A stretch of DNA of 64,000 nucleotides. Source: Neoroseomonas oryzicola (GTDB lineage Bacteria; Pseudomonadota; Alphaproteobacteria; Acetobacterales; Acetobacteraceae). This document shows positions 27,632-34,425 of this stretch, piece after piece (position 1 is the stretch's first letter; every line of letters begins with the position of its first letter). The notes below the pieces were generated by a model. The model was not told the DNA's origin and did not search any database. It saw only the letters and a list, made by a program, of their open reading frames with translations. The translations under genes were made by a program, and so were the position numbers. The stretch spans positions 620,001 to 684,000 of the forward strand of contig NZ_JAAVUP010000001.1 of NCBI RefSeq assembly GCF_012163135.1, given 5' to 3'.

Positions 27632-28408
27632 ATGGATCACCCTGTTCCCGACCCGGACTGGACGGCCCTGCTGGCGGCGCGCGACGGCGCCGCGCCGGCG
27701 GGCACCTTGGCGCCGCTCTTTGCGCCGATCCTGGCGGCGCCCGCCGCGGCGGATGGCTGCCGCGTCGTCGGACGCCTGGCGCAGACGCTGGACGGGCGCA
27801 TCGCCACCGCCTCCGGATCCAGCCAGTGGATCGGCGGGCATGGCGACATCCTGCACACCCACCGGCTGCGCGCGCTGTGCCACGCCGTCGTGGTCGGCGC
27901 GGGCACGGTGCGGCATGACGATCCGCGCCTGACGACGCGGGAAGTGCCCGGGCCCGACCCGGTGCGCGTCGTGATCGACACCGAACGACGCCTGTCCACG
28001 GAGTACCGCGTGTTCCGCGAAGGGCCGCCGACGCTGCTCGCCTGCGCGGAGGATGCCGCGGGCAGCGCCCGACACGGCACGGCCGAGGTGCTGCGGCTGC
28101 CGCGCGACCCGGCGGGGGGCATCGCGCCGGCCGCGCTGCTCCGCGCGCTGGCCGCCCGCGGCCTGACGCGGATCTTCGTCGAGGGCGGCGGGCTGACCGT
28201 CTCCCGCTTCCTCGCGGCGGGATGCCTCGACCGGCTGCACGTGACGGTCGCGCCGGTGCTGCTGGGCTCCGGCATCCCGGCCTTCACCCTGCCCGAGGTG
28301 GCGCGCATCGCCGACGGGCTGCGCTTCACCTGGCGGGTGCACGAGATCCCGCCGGACATCCTGCTCGACATCCCGCTCGACCGCGTGCGGCCGGGATGCG
28401 CGGCATGA
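27632..28408 (+). CDS. RibD C-terminal-type (pyrimidine/pterin) reductase
   Basis: A 258-residue protein built on the RibD C-terminal/dihydrofolate-reductase-like fold. Signatures are VVGRLAQTLDGRIATASGSSQWIGG (about 44-68), HRLRALCHAVVVGAGTVRHDDPRLTTR, and the NADPH-binding GLTRIFVEGGGLTVSRFL near 187. It has no deaminase domain, so it is not the bifunctional riboflavin enzyme. It likely reduces a ribosyl-aminopyrimidine or pterin-type substrate. Overlaps the dehydrogenase gene by 4 bases; first gene of the presumed five-gene set. Confidence 0.85.
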   Translation: MDHPVPDPDWTALLAARDGAAPAGTLAPLFAPILAAPAAADGCRVVGRLAQTLDGRIATASGSSQWIGGHGDILHTHRLRALCHAVVVGAGTVRHDDPRLTTREVPGPDPVRVVIDTERRLSTEYRVFREGPPTLLACAEDAAGSARHGTAEVLRLPRDPAGGIAPAALLRALAARGLTRIFVEGGGLTVSRFLAAGCLDRLHVTVAPVLLGSGIPAFTLPEVARIADGLRFTWRVHEIPPDILLDIPLDRVRPGCAA

Positions 28409-29385
28409 GCGAAGCCCGCGCCCTCTGGACCGTCGCCCCCGGCAGTTGCGAGATCCGCGCCGAGGCCCTGCCGCCGCGCGCCGCAGACCAGACGCTGGTC
28501 CGCACACTCGCGACCGGCATTTCGCGGGGCACGGAACGCCTGGTCCTCGCGGGACGCGTGCCGGAGAACCAGCGCGCGGCGATGCGCTGCCCGCTCCAGG
28601 CGGGCGATTTCCCCTTCCCGGTGAAATACGGCTACGCCGCGGTCGGCGTCGTGGAGGACGGGCCCGAGGCGTTGCTCGGGCGGCGCGTCTTCGTCCTGCA
28701 TCCGCACCAGGACCGCTTCCTCGCTCCCGCGGCCATGTGCATCCCGGTGCCAAATGGCGTGCCGGACGCGCGCGCCGTCCTCGCCGCCAACATGGAGACC
28801 GCGGTCAACGTGACCTGGGATGCGCGGCCGCTGGCCGGGGAACGCGCGCTCGTCATCGGCGCCGGGGTGGTCGGGCTGCTGGTTGCCGCGCTGCTCGCGC
28901 GGATGCCGGGGATGGAAGTCGTGGTCTGCGACGTCGATCCGCGCCGCCGCGCGATCGCCGAGGCACTCGGCGCCCGCTTCGCCCAGCCGGAGGACGCACC
29001 CGGCGAGCGCGACCTGATCGTCCATGCCAGCGCGGACCCCGCCGGACTGCGCCGCGCCCTCGACCTCGCCGGCTTCGAGGGTCGCATCGTCGAGGCATCC
29101 TGGTTCGGCACGCGGGAGGCGACCCTGCCGCTCGGCGAGGCCTTCCACGCGAAGCGGCTGCAGATCGTCTCGACCCAGGTCGGCGCCGTCGCACCGGCGA
29201 TGCGCGGGCGGCGGACGCATGGCGAACGGATGGCGCTCGCCCTGTCCCTGCTCGCGGATGCGCGGCTCGATGCCCTGGTCGGGCCGGCGACGCGCTTCGA
29301 CGATCTGCCCGAGGCCATGCCGCGGCTGCTGAACCCGCCGCCGGGCGAGATCCCGCCCCTCTGCCCCCTCGTCACCTACGGCTGA
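28405..29385 (+). CDS. Zinc-type alcohol dehydrogenase (BchC-like)
   Basis: A 326-residue medium-chain dehydrogenase. The start (TLATGISRGTERLVLAGRVP), the segment GDFPFPVKYGYAAVGVV and the nucleotide loop VIGAGVVGLLVAALLA (about 152-167) resemble the BchC subgroup. The catalytic zinc ligands (GHE) and structural cysteines of classical enzymes are not seen, so its chemistry may differ. No bacteriochlorophyll genes are nearby. ATGA coupling to the RibD-type gene suggests a joint pathway. Confidence 0.8.
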   Translation: MSEARALWTVAPGSCEIRAEALPPRAADQTLVRTLATGISRGTERLVLAGRVPENQRAAMRCPLQAGDFPFPVKYGYAAVGVVEDGPEALLGRRVFVLHPHQDRFLAPAAMCIPVPNGVPDARAVLAANMETAVNVTWDARPLAGERALVIGAGVVGLLVAALLARMPGMEVVVCDVDPRRRAIAEALGARFAQPEDAPGERDLIVHASADPAGLRRALDLAGFEGRIVEASWFGTREATLPLGEAFHAKRLQIVSTQVGAVAPAMRGRRTHGERMALALSLLADARLDALVGPATRFDDLPEAMPRLLNPPPGEIPPLCPLVTYG

Positions 29386-29503
29386 GGCTTGCGGGCGGGC
29401 GACGCCCGTCCCACCTGACCTGACGGCGGTGCCCATCCGGCTGCCCGCCCGGCGGCGCCGCCCTCCCCGTGCCCTTCGGCGCGGTTGCGGGCAGGAGGGC
29501 GTC

Positions 29504-29647
29504 ATGGCTGCAACCCATCACGGGTCCGCGGGCCCGATCACGACGGCCGTCCGGCAGGGCGTTACGCTGGGCGTCATGCGCTGGGTGCTGGCCGCCTCGC
29601 TTCTGGCGGCGGTCATCGGCCTGGTCGTGGCGCGGCTGCTGGCCTAA
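29504..29647 (+). CDS. Small single-pass membrane protein (47 residues)
   Basis: Starts at an ATG with AGGAGGG six bases upstream, the strongest ribosome-binding site in this stretch. The protein has a polar start (AATHHGSAGPITTAVRQG) and one membrane helix (WVLAASLLAAVIGLVVARLL, residues 27-46) that ends the chain. It fills most of the 323-base gap between the dehydrogenase and PTPS-type genes. No family recognised; it could be an unrelated small membrane protein inserted in the set. Confidence 0.6.
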   Translation: MAATHHGSAGPITTAVRQGVTLGVMRWVLAASLLAAVIGLVVARLLA

Positions 29648-29708
29648 CCACGGCTAAGCGCGGCGACCCGCGGATGACGGGCGCGCATGCCGCCGCTACA
29701 AGGACGGC

Positions 29709-30113
29709 ATGTTCAGCCTGACCGTCGTCGACCACGTCATGATCGCCCATTCCTTCCGCGGGGAGGAATTCGGGCCGGCGCAACGCCTGCACGGCGCCAC
29801 CTTCGTGGTGGAAGCCGAGTTCCGCGCGCCGAAACTCGACCACCTGAACCTGCTGGTGGACATCGCCGCAGCGAAGGTGGAACTGCGGAAGATCCTCGAC
29901 GGCTTCGACTACCGGAACCTCGATGCGGAACCGCAATTCGCCGGGCAGAACACGACCACCGAATACCTCTGCGCCCATATCCACAAGCTGCTGTCGGCCG
30001 CGCTGGCCGAGGGGCGGCTCGGCGATGGCGGGCGCGCCGTGACCGGGCTGAAGGTGCTGCTGCGCGAAAGCCATGTCGCCTGGGCGGCCTATGAGGGAGC
30101 GCCCGCGGCTTGA
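29709..30113 (+). CDS. 6-pyruvoyl-tetrahydropterin synthase homologue, catalytic residues replaced
   Basis: A 134-residue T-fold protein. His14 and His28 (RLHGATF) match two zinc ligands of PTPS/QueD, but the third (HGH) is Ala30, the catalytic cysteine position is Ala24, and the LDH histidine is Tyr68 (GFDYRNLD). Glu120 (LLRESHVAW), used for pterin anchoring, remains, and FAGQNTTTEYLCAHIHKLL is typical. It should bind a pterin- or pyrimidine-like ring but cannot work as a normal synthase. Coupled by overlap with the glycosyltransferase gene. Confidence 0.82.
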   Translation: MFSLTVVDHVMIAHSFRGEEFGPAQRLHGATFVVEAEFRAPKLDHLNLLVDIAAAKVELRKILDGFDYRNLDAEPQFAGQNTTTEYLCAHIHKLLSAALAEGRLGDGGRAVTGLKVLLRESHVAWAAYEGAPAA

Positions 30114-31156
30114 GCATCCATCTCCTCGTCCCCGGCCCCTTCGACGCCATCTCGGGCGGCTACATCTACGACCGGCGCATGGTCGAAGGGCTCCGCGCCC
30201 TCGGCGAGACGGTCGAGGTCGTCGAACTGCCCGGCCACCACCCCGCCCCCGACGAGGCCGCGACCGAAGGCGCGCGGGCCGCGCTGCACGCCCTGCCGGC
30301 CGATGCGCGGGTGGTCATCGACGGGCTCGGCCTGCCGGCCTTCCTGCCGCTGGCGCAGGAACTCGCCGCCCGGCGCGTCACCGCGCTGATCCATCACCCG
30401 ACCGCGCTCGAACACGGCACGGCGGAATCCACCCGGACGGTGCTGAAGGCGAAGGAACGCGCGCTGTTCGCCGCCTGTGCGCGGATCGTCTGCACCTCGC
30501 CGCTGACGGCGCGGCGGCTGCCGGAGGAATTCGGCGCGGATGCCGCGCAGATCGGCGTGGTCGAGCCCGGCACCGATCCGGCGTTGCGCGCGAAAGGCTC
30601 GGGCGGGCCGGGCTGCGCCATCCTCTCGGTCGGCACGCTGGTGCCGCGGAAGGGACATGACGTGCTGCTCAAGGCGCTGGCGCGGCTCACGGACCTCGAA
30701 TGGACGCTGACCATCGCGGGGGACGAACGGCGCGATCCCGCCCATGCCCATGGGCTGCGCGCGCTGGCCGAGGAACTCGGCATCGCTTCCCGCGTCACCT
30801 TCGCGGGCGAGGTCACGGGCGAGGAGCTCGAAGCGCTCTACGCCGGGGCCGACCTGTTTGCGCTGGCGACGCGCTGGGAGGGCTACGGCATGGCCGCGGC
30901 CGAAGCGATGGCCCGCGGCCTGCCGCTCGCCATCACCGCCGGCGGCGCGATCGCCGAGGTGGTGGCCGAGGGATCGGCCATCGTCTCCCCCGTCGATGAC
31001 GTGATGTCGCTGTCCAAGGGCATGCGGCGGCCGATCTTCGACGCGGACCTCCGCGCCGAGATGGCCGAGGCGTCCTGGCAGGGCGGGCAGCGCCTGCCGC
31101 GCTGGACCGATCGTGCGGAGGCCTTCCGCGCCGAGCTTGCCAAGGCGGTCGCCTGA
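30110..31156 (+). CDS. Glycosyltransferase family 4
   Basis: A 348-residue GT-B enzyme. N-terminal LVPGPFDAISGGYIYDRRMVEGL, the hinge ILSVGTLVPRKGHDVLLKAL (about 167-186) and the donor site RWEGYGMAAAEAMARGLP (E-x7-E, about 258-275) are clear. The start is a TTG at 30110 that shares bases with the upstream TGA; the next in-frame ATG would remove the N-terminal strand. It likely transfers a sugar to a small molecule made by the neighbouring pterin-type enzymes. Its stop overlaps the methyltransferase ATG. Confidence 0.88.
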   Translation: MSIHLLVPGPFDAISGGYIYDRRMVEGLRALGETVEVVELPGHHPAPDEAATEGARAALHALPADARVVIDGLGLPAFLPLAQELAARRVTALIHHPTALEHGTAESTRTVLKAKERALFAACARIVCTSPLTARRLPEEFGADAAQIGVVEPGTDPALRAKGSGGPGCAILSVGTLVPRKGHDVLLKALARLTDLEWTLTIAGDERRDPAHAHGLRALAEELGIASRVTFAGEVTGEELEALYAGADLFALATRWEGYGMAAAEAMARGLPLAITAGGAIAEVVAEGSAIVSPVDDVMSLSKGMRRPIFDADLRAEMAEASWQGGQRLPRWTDRAEAFRAELAKAVA

Positions 31157-32031
31157 TGACGGAGGCCTTCGACGGCGACTGGCTCGACCTGCGGGAGCCC
31201 TATGACGCGGCCTCGCGGGATTTCGGCCTGGCGGTGCGGCTGGCGGCGGCGCTGCCGGCGCGGCCGCGCATCCTCGACCTCGGCGCCGGGACGGGCAGCC
31301 TGCTGCGCTGGCTCGGCCATTTCATCGGGCGCGCCCAGGCCTGGACGCTGGTCGATGCCGACCCCGAGCTCGCCGAGCGCGCCTTCGAGACCATCGCCGA
31401 CCGCGCCGAGGCCGTGGGCTGGGCGGCCACCTGGCCGGGCAAGAAGACCCTGCTGGTGCACTCGCCCGAAGGCGCCTGGCGAATCGAGGGGCTGATCGCG
31501 GACCTCGCCGAGGCGCCCGGCAACCTGCCGCTCGACAAGGTGGATGCGGTGGTCTGCTCGGCGCTGTGCGACCTCGTCTCGCGCGGCTGGATCGAGCGCA
31601 TCGCCGCCGCCTGCGCCGCCCGCCGCCTGCCCTTCTATGCCGCGCTGAACGTGACGGGGAACGAGCGCTTCGCGCCGCCGCGCCGCGGCGATGCGGTCGT
31701 GATGCGCGGCTTCCGGCGCGACCAGCGGCGCGACAAGGGCTTCGGCGGCATCGCCCTCGGCCCCGCGGCGCCGGACGCGATCGCCGAGGCCTTCGCCGCG
31801 CAGGGCTACACGGTGCATCGCGCGCCGTCCGACTGGGTGATCGACCGCCGCGCCGGCGCGATCACCGAAGCCATCGCGGTCGGCCATGCCACCGCCGCGC
31901 TCGCCTGGGAACGGCGATCGGGCGCGGCGATCGAGGATTGGCTCGCGGCGCGCCGCTCACAGGCGGTGAACAGGGCTCTCTCGATCCGCATCGGCCACCA
32001 GGACATCCTCGCCCTTCCCCCCGAACGGTAA
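31156..32031 (+). CDS. Class I SAM-dependent methyltransferase
   Basis: A 291-residue enzyme with motif I ILDLGAGTGSLLRWL (about 39-53), the acidic residue LVDADPEL at the end of strand 2 and a motif IV-like VDAVVCSALCDL (about 129). Substrate unknown; its coupling to the GT4 gene suggests methylation of the same product. Last of the RibD-to-methyltransferase set; a cupin gene follows after 10 bases. Confidence 0.85.
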   Translation: MTEAFDGDWLDLREPYDAASRDFGLAVRLAAALPARPRILDLGAGTGSLLRWLGHFIGRAQAWTLVDADPELAERAFETIADRAEAVGWAATWPGKKTLLVHSPEGAWRIEGLIADLAEAPGNLPLDKVDAVVCSALCDLVSRGWIERIAAACAARRLPFYAALNVTGNERFAPPRRGDAVVMRGFRRDQRRDKGFGGIALGPAAPDAIAEAFAAQGYTVHRAPSDWVIDRRAGAITEAIAVGHATAALAWERRSGAAIEDWLAARRSQAVNRALSIRIGHQDILALPPER

Positions 32032-32041
32032 GGAGACCGCC

Positions 32042-32527
32042 ATGTCCGACGCCAAGCCCCCGATCGCCGTCGTCGCCGCCGAGGTGCCGCCGCGCGCGAA
32101 GCTCTCGGGCTATCCGAAGGACCTGGTCGAGAAGATCGGCAACCGCCAGAAGACCGTCCTCGGCGACCTGTTCGGTCTGAGGAATTTCGGCGTGAACATC
32201 ACGCGCCTGCCGGCCGGTTCGGCCTCCGCATTGCGCCACGCGCACGAGAAGCAGGACGAGTTCGTCTACATCCTCGAAGGCGAATGCATCCTGGTGACGA
32301 ATGCCGGCGAGACGCCGATGAAGGCCGGGATGTGCGCCGGCTTCCGCGCCGGCACCGGCGACGCGCATCACCTGGTCAATCGGGGCGGCGCGGATTGCGT
32401 CTATCTCGAGATCGGCGACCGCACGCTGTTCGAGAGCGTCGACTACCCCGATGACGACCTGATGGTTCGCCCCGGACCGGACGGGAAGTCGGTCTATTTC
32501 CGCAAGGACGGAACGCGCGTCTTCTGA
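32042..32527 (+). CDS. Cupin domain protein
   Basis: A 161-residue single-cupin protein. Metal-site motif 1 reads ALRHAHEKQDEFVYILEGE (about 61-79) and motif 2 GTGDAHHLVNRG, with the His/Glu ligands in place. The mature core lies at residues 45-130. It may be a sugar- or acid-binding isomerase; its position 13 bases before otnK suggests a role in tetronate metabolism, or it may belong to the preceding set. AAGGAG precedes the ATG. Confidence 0.8.
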   Translation: MSDAKPPIAVVAAEVPPRAKLSGYPKDLVEKIGNRQKTVLGDLFGLRNFGVNITRLPAGSASALRHAHEKQDEFVYILEGECILVTNAGETPMKAGMCAGFRAGTGDAHHLVNRGGADCVYLEIGDRTLFESVDYPDDDLMVRPGPDGKSVYFRKDGTRVF

Positions 32528-32540
32528 AGGAGGGCCACGA

Positions 32541-33800
32541 ATGCCCCTGCTGCTTGGCTGCATCGCCGACGATTTCACCGGCGCCACGGATCTCGCCAAC
32601 ACCCTGGTCAAGGCCGGGATGTCCGCCGTCCAGGTGATCGGCGTGCCGGCGGGCCCGCTGCCCGAGGCGGACGCGGTGATCATCGCGCTCAAGATCCGCA
32701 CCGCGCCGGTCGCCGAGGCGGTCGGGCAGTCGCTCGCGGCCTGCGATGCGCTCACGAAGGCCGGGGCGAAGCAGCTCTTCTGGAAGTACTGCTCGACCTT
32801 CGACAGCACGGACCAGGGCAATATCGGCCCGGTGGGCGATGCGCTGCTCAAGCGGCTCGGCTCGGGCTTCGCCATCGCCTGCCCGGCCTTCCCGACCAAT
32901 GGGCGGACGATCTACCTCGGCCACCTGTTCGTTGGCGGGGCGCTGCTGAACGAGAGCGGGATGGAGAACCATCCGCTCACCCCCATGACCGACCCGAACC
33001 TGGTGCGCGTGATGGCGCGGCAGACGGATGGCAGCGTCGGCCTCGTCTCCTTCCCCGTCGTCGAGCAGGGCGCGGCGGCCATCCGTCGTGCCATGACCGG
33101 GTTGATGGACCGCGGCACGCGCTGGGCGATCGTCGATGCGGTCTCCGACGCGCATCTGATGGCGATCGGCGAGGCCGTGGCACCGCAGGCGCTGGTGACT
33201 GGCGGCTCGGGCGTGGCAATGGGCCTGCCGGCGAATTTCCGCCGCGCCGGGCTGCTGCCGGATCGCAGCGACGCCGGCGCCCTGCCGCCGATGACGGGCG
33301 CTGCCGCCGTCGTCGCCGGGTCCTGCTCGCGCGCGACGCTCGGGCAGATCGGCCTCGCGCGCGACCACGTGCCGGTGCTGGAACTCGATGCGCTGGCGAC
33401 GCCCGATGCGAAGGCCATGACGGCGCAGGCGCTGGCCTGGGTCGACGGCAAGCTCGAGGACGGGCGTCCCGTCGTCATCGCCGCCAGCGCGACGCCGGAG
33501 AAGGTCGCCGCCCTGCAGGCGAAGCTCGGGCGCGATGCGGCCGGCGCGCTGGTCGAGGACGCCGTCGCCTCCATCGCCGAGGGCCTGGTTGCGCGCGGAG
33601 TCGGTCGCCTGGTGGTGGCGGGCGGTGAGACCTCGGGCGCGGTGGTGACGCGCCTGGGCGTCACGTCGCTGCGCATCGGCCCGGAGATCGACCCCGGCGT
33701 GCCCTGGACCTTCGCCGAGCCGAAGGGGATCCACCTCGCGCTCAAATCCGGCAATTTCGGCGCGCGCGACTTCTTCCTGAAGGCCTTCGACCATGGATGA
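32541..33800 (+). CDS. otnK: 3-oxo-tetronate kinase OtnK
   Basis: Phosphorylates 3-oxo-tetronate at the 4-position in the use of four-carbon acid sugars. The 419-residue length is normal for the four-carbon acid sugar kinase family. Seen are GCIADDFTGATDLANTL (6-22), FWKYCSTFDSTDQGNIGP (near 85) and ALVTGGSGVAMGLP, plus the C-terminal nucleotide domain VVAGGETSGAVVTRLG. It overlaps otnC by 8 bases. Confidence 0.9.
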   Translation: MPLLLGCIADDFTGATDLANTLVKAGMSAVQVIGVPAGPLPEADAVIIALKIRTAPVAEAVGQSLAACDALTKAGAKQLFWKYCSTFDSTDQGNIGPVGDALLKRLGSGFAIACPAFPTNGRTIYLGHLFVGGALLNESGMENHPLTPMTDPNLVRVMARQTDGSVGLVSFPVVEQGAAAIRRAMTGLMDRGTRWAIVDAVSDAHLMAIGEAVAPQALVTGGSGVAMGLPANFRRAGLLPDRSDAGALPPMTGAAAVVAGSCSRATLGQIGLARDHVPVLELDALATPDAKAMTAQALAWVDGKLEDGRPVVIAASATPEKVAALQAKLGRDAAGALVEDAVASIAEGLVARGVGRLVVAGGETSGAVVTRLGVTSLRIGPEIDPGVPWTFAEPKGIHLALKSGNFGARDFFLKAFDHG

Positions 33801-34425
33801 GGCGGCGCTGCGCGAGCAGCTCGCGATGCTCGGCGCCTCGCTGTTCCAGCGGGGCTATTCGGTGGGCACGGCGGGCAACATCTCGGTGCGGCTGCCCGAC
33901 GGCTACCTGATGACGCCGACCAATTCCTGCCTCGGGCGGCTGGATCCGGCGCGGATCAGCAAGCTGGCGCCGGACTGGTCGCATGTCGGTGGCGACAAGC
34001 CGTCCAAGGAAGTCTTCATGCACCGCGCGGTGCTGACGGCGCGTCCGGATGCCGGCGCCGTGGTGCACCTGCATTCCACTTACGCGACCGCGATCGGGTG
34101 CCTTGCCGAACCCGGCGAGACGGCGCCCATCCCGCCGCTGACGCCCTATTTCGTCATGCGCGTCGGCCGCACCCTGCCGGTGATCCGCTACTACCGGCCC
34201 GGCGATGCGGCGATGGAGGCGGACATCCACGCGGCGGCGAAGGATGCGAAGGCCGTGCTGCTCGCGAACCACGGGCCGGTGGTGTCCGGCAAGACGCTGG
34301 CCGATGCCGTGCATGCCGCCGAGGAGCTCGAGGAATCCGCCCGCCTCGCGCTGCTGCTGCGCGGCGCGCCCGCCCGCACACTGACGCCGGCACAGGTGGA
34401 CGACCTGCTGAGCACCTTCGGCTGA
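33793..34425 (+). CDS. otnC: 3-oxo-tetronate 4-phosphate decarboxylase OtnC
   Basis: A class II aldolase-fold enzyme of 210 residues that decarboxylates 3-oxo-tetronate 4-phosphate to dihydroxyacetone phosphate. Signatures are GYSVGTAGNISVRLPDG (23-39), TPTNSCLGRLDP, the catalytic-type Glu in SKEVFMHRAV and the zinc-binding VVHLHSTYATA (about 95-105). It forms a kinase-decarboxylase pair with otnK; no OtnI isomerase or tetronate dehydrogenase was found nearby. Confidence 0.9.
   Translation: MDEAALREQLAMLGASLFQRGYSVGTAGNISVRLPDGYLMTPTNSCLGRLDPARISKLAPDWSHVGGDKPSKEVFMHRAVLTARPDAGAVVHLHSTYATAIGCLAEPGETAPIPPLTPYFVMRVGRTLPVIRYYRPGDAAMEADIHAAAKDAKAVLLANHGPVVSGKTLADAVHAAEELEESARLALLLRGAPARTLTPAQVDDLLSTFG

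Follow-up and report, generated by a model that had tools for sequence, protein, structure and literature searches.

Gene content of the locus

Five genes on the plus strand were analyzed at positions 27632-32031 of a 64-kb window (the whole stretch of Neoroseomonas oryzicola DNA under study, in whose numbering all window positions are given). Families were assigned by Pfam and NCBIfam profile searches. The first gene (27632..28408) encodes a RibD_C-type reductase without a deaminase domain (PF01872, E 1.7e-41), predicted to reduce a ribosylamino-pyrimidinone with NAD(P)H, and the second (28405..29385) a BchC-like dehydrogenase of the MDR family in which SRGTE replaces the zinc-binding Cys motif (best NCBIfam match BchC, E 4e-14, far under its cut-off). 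These are followed by a T-fold protein of the PTPS-IV subfamily bearing an FGPAQ signature (29709..30113; PF01242, E 1.8e-21), a GT4 retaining glycosyltransferase with a TTG start codon (30110..31156; PF00534, E 2.6e-30) and a class I S-adenosylmethionine-dependent methyltransferase that is characteristic of the cluster (31156..32031; Methyltransf_25, E 6.6e-6). A preliminary description of this DNA had named the same five genes and families, and all were recovered at these coordinates. It had also described four consecutive junctions as coupled or tight; three of the four internal junctions overlap as read from the sequence (ATGA between reductase and dehydrogenase, TTGA between PTPS and GT4, TGATG between GT4 and methyltransferase), but dehydrogenase and PTPS are separated by a 323-bp gap.

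Conservation of the gene set

Nearly all genomes of the Acetobacteraceae order carried a PTPS (283/299), of different kinds. The PTPS-IV type was present in 14 of 20 sampled regions, 13 of them with all five genes and one without GT4 and methyltransferase. An Acetobacter-like kind has CxxxHGH and lacks the five-gene neighbors; in Acetobacter-like genomes (L053, L048, L054, L058, L060, L064) this different PTPS reads CxxPHGHN with an insertion. Of 64 named loci from Acetobacteraceae and relatives, 49 hold all five genes in the same order; the remainder include truncated contigs and loci that retain a reductase-dehydrogenase-PTPS core. The closest named PTPS matches were 93-97% identical to the window protein. 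Flagellar and Otn-type flanking genes are likewise common to Acetobacteraceae loci, so co-occurrence in this family could by itself reflect family synteny.

A stronger test came from distant genomes (398 Pseudomonadota sampled, 27 with PTPS-IV, of which 26 were counted and the window's own was excluded). The dehydrogenase lay beside PTPS-IV in all 26 loci, GT4 in 25, the methyltransferase in 24 and RibD_C in 22, with gene order and strand changed among them. The set, at times minus one member, was also found in Lentzea, Amycolatopsis, Streptomyces, Actinomadura and Microbacterium, in Lamprocystis and Thiodictyon (Chromatiaceae), in Methylosinus and an acidobacterium, and in Rhizobium and Agrobacterium, including Rhizobiaceae plasmids. 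Across 32 loci outside the Acetobacteraceae, pairwise protein distances of the five families correlated (r 0.82 for GT4 and methyltransferase, 0.74 for dehydrogenase and PTPS). Some loci were present twice via different collections (e.g., L146 and L197), and counts are not fully independent. The five-gene association is far beyond chance, as it is met again in several phyla with the genes in other orders, and the co-occurrence that the preliminary description had named as a check on its reading holds both in Acetobacteraceae and related loci and in distant lineages. Conservation in alphaproteobacteria, gammaproteobacteria, actinobacteria and an acidobacterium makes a trivial metabolite an unlikely product of the set. 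The five genes are on balance likely to represent an orphan pathway of wide distribution, in the compact form that it takes in Acetobacteraceae; it would lead from guanosine triphosphate (GTP) via a diamino-ribosylamino-pyrimidinone to a pteridine-type compound bearing a sugar and a methyl group.

Two neighboring features were considered separately. An open reading frame of 47 residues in the 323-bp gap (29504..29647, plus strand), with one predicted membrane span, is kept only in the four closest relatives (L076-L079; 55-68% identity), where an RQGxTLGxMRWVL-like stretch is conserved; it is at most a tentative member of the set. Downstream, a cupin gene starts 10 bp after the methyltransferase and belongs to a different gene group, of four-carbon-acid-sugar type, in which cupin, OtnK-like kinase and OtnC-like aldolase genes occupy 32042-34425. 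The OtnK-like gene was present in 64 of 84 Acetobacteraceae-group loci and thus reflects old synteny; it was not among the annotated neighbors in other groups.

Features of the encoded proteins

The window PTPS reads F21-G22-P23-A24-Q25. FGPAQ was invariant in 15 aligned sequences, FGPAQxxHGA was found in 116 of 119 loci, and FGPAQ is the signature given for the PTPS-IV subfamily (COG0720) in PMC5445326. Streptomyces coelicolor SCO6650 (PDB 3d7j) was matched over the whole length of the protein (E 2e-44). In place of the CxxxHGH motif of QueD and PTPS-I the window sequence has AQRLHGA, with both the Cys and the second His replaced by Ala. Relative to QueD, Ala thus stands in for the catalytic Cys and for one zinc His, and Tyr for the LDH histidine, and the C-terminal pterin-binding Glu is kept; the roles given to these residues (catalytic Cys, zinc His, pterin-binding Glu) are those usual for the family. 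The structure paper on SCO6650 reportedly describes a protein that lacks zinc, the catalytic triad and PTPS activity and retains pterin-binding residues, which agrees with the residues seen here. PTPS-IV proteins are annotated in databases as 6-carboxytetrahydropterin synthase, a queuosine label that is contradicted by their residues and that the present comparison would correct.

The window reductase belongs to the RibD_C superfamily (142.6 bits against a PF01872 cut-off of 24.1) and is distinct from the bifunctional riboflavin RibD, as only PF01872 was matched, an N-terminal deaminase is absent and the RibD equivalog fell under its cut-off. Its best solved relatives were 2,5-diamino-6-ribosylamino-4(3H)-pyrimidinone 5'-phosphate reductase 6p8c and the related 2azn. 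The dehydrogenase scored 52.4 bits against a BchC equivalog cut-off of 291.25 and so falls well short of it. In alignment to 4ilk, S40-R41-G42-T43-E44 replaces the catalytic zinc Cys of the GxCGT(D/E) region and was invariant in 16 diverse sequences, so that the annotation "zinc-binding" is doubtful and the enzyme is probably zinc-less. The AlphaFold model of GT4 (predicted local distance difference test, pLDDT, 95.6) was closest in fold to MshA (Z 35.5) and sucrose-phosphate synthase (Z 35.4); these use phosphorylated polyol or sugar acceptors, which is suggestive of a ribityl-phosphate acceptor for GT4. The methyltransferase model (pLDDT 96.4) has a class I fold (best Z 19.6), and the fold search returned general class I methyltransferases only, with no substrate hint. 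A role in anti-phage defense was considered and rejected: a Pfam GT4-conflict match (GT4) and a weak mad2 match (methyltransferase) look like shared folds, and the set holds no other defense gene.

Additional genes in other lineages

Neighbors beyond the five families were counted in the 26 Pseudomonadota loci. RibA was found in or beside 11 clusters, a CDP-alcohol phosphatidyltransferase in 12, a flippase-like LPG_synthase_TM protein in 11, an OpgH/MdoH-type glycosyltransferase in 12, an FkbM methyltransferase in eight, cytochrome b561 in seven and creatininase in six. The phosphatidyltransferase carries the full catalytic motif, and together with the flippase-like gene it is common in actinobacterial clusters. 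In eight of its 12 loci the OpgH/MdoH-type gene is directly upstream of the dehydrogenase, at the spot held elsewhere by the phosphatidyltransferase, and these eight lack the latter. This gene is divergent from the dehydrogenase (L158, L204, L210, L215, L217, L219-L222) and was never seen at the spot together with a phosphatidyltransferase.

Such genes would suit a product that is a lipid or glycan, in which the GTP-type enzymes make only the head group and the phosphatidyltransferase, flippase-like protein and GT4 build a ring-bearing membrane glycolipid. This is unlikely, since none of the lipid-type genes, the CDP-alcohol phosphatidyltransferase included, is near the Acetobacteraceae clusters, and the window's genome has no orthologue of the cluster phosphatidyltransferase (best E 5e-6, at the level of the general family). 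RibA and creatininase are also absent from Acetobacteraceae cluster neighborhoods. Lipid linkage is not core to the pathway, although in some lineages the glycosylated, methylated pteridine-type product is perhaps linked to lipid.

RibA and creatininase were compared at the position of E. coli Tyr105. This position is Met or His in nine actinobacterial clusters, all of which have creatininase (9/9), versus 5/13 of the clusters read in which RibA has Tyr (p about 0.004, calculated by hand and uncorrected for phylogeny). Strict mutual exclusion of the switch residue and creatininase was rejected, as Tyr and a divergent creatininase occur together in gammaproteobacterial clusters, which leaves a one-way link. 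SCO6655, which has Met, is said to make a formylated pyrimidine, with a Met-to-Tyr change restoring the usual product, and deformylation would therefore be needed; archaeal ArfB deformylases are of creatininase type. The link between RibA residue and creatininase thus ties the pathway to diamino-ribosylamino-pyrimidinone. The comparison yields a candidate precursor (ribityl-diaminopyrimidinone), predicts which RibA paralogues would depend on a deformylase as partner and offers, in the five-gene version, a set short enough to suit reconstitution.

Separation from riboflavin and queuosine synthesis

The riboflavin genes of the genome (ribD-ribE-ribBA) lie together on contig C12, and the window reductase is a paralogue outside that locus. 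The cyclohydrolase half of RibBA (L072 9485-10621) lacks the cysteines of other RibA proteins and is degenerate and RibBX-like. A stand-alone RibA on contig C2 (L065 9992-11389), outside the window, keeps both the cysteines and the Tyr switch residue; as the ribBA half lacks its cysteines, working cyclohydrolase II in the genome is probably supplied by this RibA alone. Riboflavin synthesis as the role of the set was ruled out by the separate ribD-ribE-ribBA locus. A flavin or lumazine analogue, with the RibD_C paralogue feeding a side branch of riboflavin synthesis, would draw on the riboflavin-type chemistry of RibD_C and RibA and on a paralogue freed by that separate locus. We consider it improbable: no lumazine synthase, riboflavin synthase or flavin kinase was annotated in the neighborhoods read, and the deaminase required for the flavin pyrimidine is absent from the RibD_C protein.

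Less probable again is that PTPS-IV serves archaeal-type F420 synthesis. PTPS-IV is listed as F420-related, on unpublished grounds, in PMC5041015. A ribityl-diaminopyrimidine stage would be common to both routes, but no F420 synthase was annotated in the neighborhoods read (CofG/CofH were not searched for in the genome). The Acetobacteraceae among PTPS-IV carriers are not known for F420, which also counts against this explanation.

QueE was not found in a TIGR03365 search at E 0.001 (the control was positive in 10 of 14 genomes), nor was a canonical QueD found in the genome. QueC is present, about 75 kb from the cluster; it persists beside QueG and a YhhQ-like transporter (L006 1486-2190; contig C1:575218-575889), an odd remnant or salvage arrangement without QueE or canonical QueD found. 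That PTPS-IV is a queuosine or 7-deazapurine enzyme with incidental neighbors is scarcely credible, for family membership, database annotation and a QueC in the genome stand against a lost CxxxHGH motif, the missing QueE, the distance of QueC and recurrent neighbors that are not queuosine genes. Queuosine synthesis as the role of the set was accordingly ruled out by the lost QueD motif and the QueE result.

The preliminary description had allowed that the reductase might prove to belong to riboflavin synthesis or the PTPS to queuosine synthesis, and neither was the case: the genome has its own ribD-ribE-ribBA on C12, and the PTPS has lost its catalytic Cys and one zinc His in a genome where QueE was not found. 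The reading in that description is supported in part: it was largely right about a pathway, its ring product is a predicted one, and its "deazapurine-like" alternative gained no support, as 7-deazapurine-making enzymes are not associated with the set. Gene content, conservation, the residues lost and kept, and separation from both syntheses are established here.

Proposed pathway

In the proposed route to a glycosylated, methylated pteridine-type compound, GTP cyclohydrolase II would open GTP to give 2,5-diamino-6-ribosylamino-4(3H)-pyrimidinone 5'-phosphate. This enzyme would here be the stand-alone RibA on the other contig, and elsewhere the cluster RibA, aided in actinobacteria by the creatininase-type deformylase. 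The RibD_C-type enzyme would then convert ribosyl to ribityl by reduction, with the 2-amino group kept because a deaminase domain is absent. PTPS-IV, its zinc and cysteine chemistry lost and its pterin-binding glutamate kept, may handle the 2-amino-4-oxo ring, perhaps closing or trimming the second ring. The MDR enzyme, probably zinc-less, would oxidize or reduce a side-chain alcohol or ketone next to the PTPS-IV step, after which a sugar would be added by GT4 and a methyl group by the methyltransferase.

Several points weigh against this scheme. Each reaction, the reaction order and the product, including the pteridine ring and the action of GT4 and methyltransferase on it, are what we infer from the genes. 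Once ribosyl had been reduced to ribityl, the Amadori route that FolE takes to close a pterin would be blocked, so the ring-closing step is unexplained. The RibA of the window's genome lies outside the cluster, several Streptomyces and Amycolatopsis loci have no RibD_C near the cluster, and the link between Met or His and creatininase is confounded with phylogeny, as these residues were seen in actinobacteria only. The GT4 model was no closer to tetrahydrobiopterin glucosyltransferase (Z 30.1; sequence E 9e-5) than to many others. Solitary PTPS-IV genes occur on some Streptomyces plasmids; at L156, L159 and L223 their neighbors include cupin, sigma factor and BTAD regulator genes, and the other genes of the cluster are missing.

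A more speculative extension, which we think rather unlikely, is a lipid-anchored pteridine redox carrier. The set would then specify a new family of GTP-derived, glycosylated, methylated ring cofactors or pigments across phyla, built onto membrane lipid in lineages with CDP-alcohol phosphatidyltransferase, flippase-like protein and cytochrome b561, the Acetobacteraceae form being soluble and stripped-down.

Comparison with known systems

The nearest system is the orphan cluster SCO6650-SCO6655 of S. coelicolor, in which SCO6655 is a GTP cyclohydrolase II homologue. Dehydrogenase, PTPS-IV, GT4 and methyltransferase occur in this order in the other Streptomyces clusters compared and in the window. 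Streptomyces clusters add a RibA with a Met switch residue, a creatininase, a CDP-alcohol phosphatidyltransferase and a flippase-like protein, all of which are missing near the five genes of the window, where RibD_C is adjacent instead.

The tetrahydrobiopterin glucosyltransferase BGluT provides a cyanobacterial route to pterin glycosides that involves a catalytically intact PTPS-II and sepiapterin reductase. A GT4-fold enzyme transfers sugar to a pterin in that system, and GT4 here is likewise a predicted glycosyltransferase; however, the PTPS here lacks the catalytic residues, and the GT4 model has its best fold matches in MshA and sucrose-phosphate synthase. The early steps of archaeal riboflavin and F420 synthesis (ArfB, ArfC) share the same predicted intermediate and the creatininase-type deformylase and RibD_C-type reductase families. 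They differ in the first enzyme, a GTP cyclohydrolase III where the cluster route would use a RibA-type cyclohydrolase, and in what follows, as the cluster route continues with dehydrogenase, PTPS-IV, GT4 and methyltransferase.

A PTPS-IV neighborhood with RibA (PF00925) and RibD_C was reported in 2017 (PMC5445326). The window shares its FGPAQ signature and RibD_C neighbor, with RibA on contig C2 outside the window. The passage concerned names RibA and RibD_C only and mentions neither dehydrogenase, GT4, methyltransferase and membrane genes nor the pattern across phyla. In the literature searched, no account turned up of the complete set, of how widely it is spread, of the lipid- and OpgH-type variants or of the RibA-creatininase link. 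The preliminary description knew of no described pathway with this set, which stands for the set as a whole but not for its parts, as the 2017 neighborhood was on record and SCO6650 and SCO6655 had been studied singly. With SCO6650, SCO6655 and the PTPS-IV/RibA/RibD_C neighborhood already known, the five-gene form is a compact variant of this orphan pathway.

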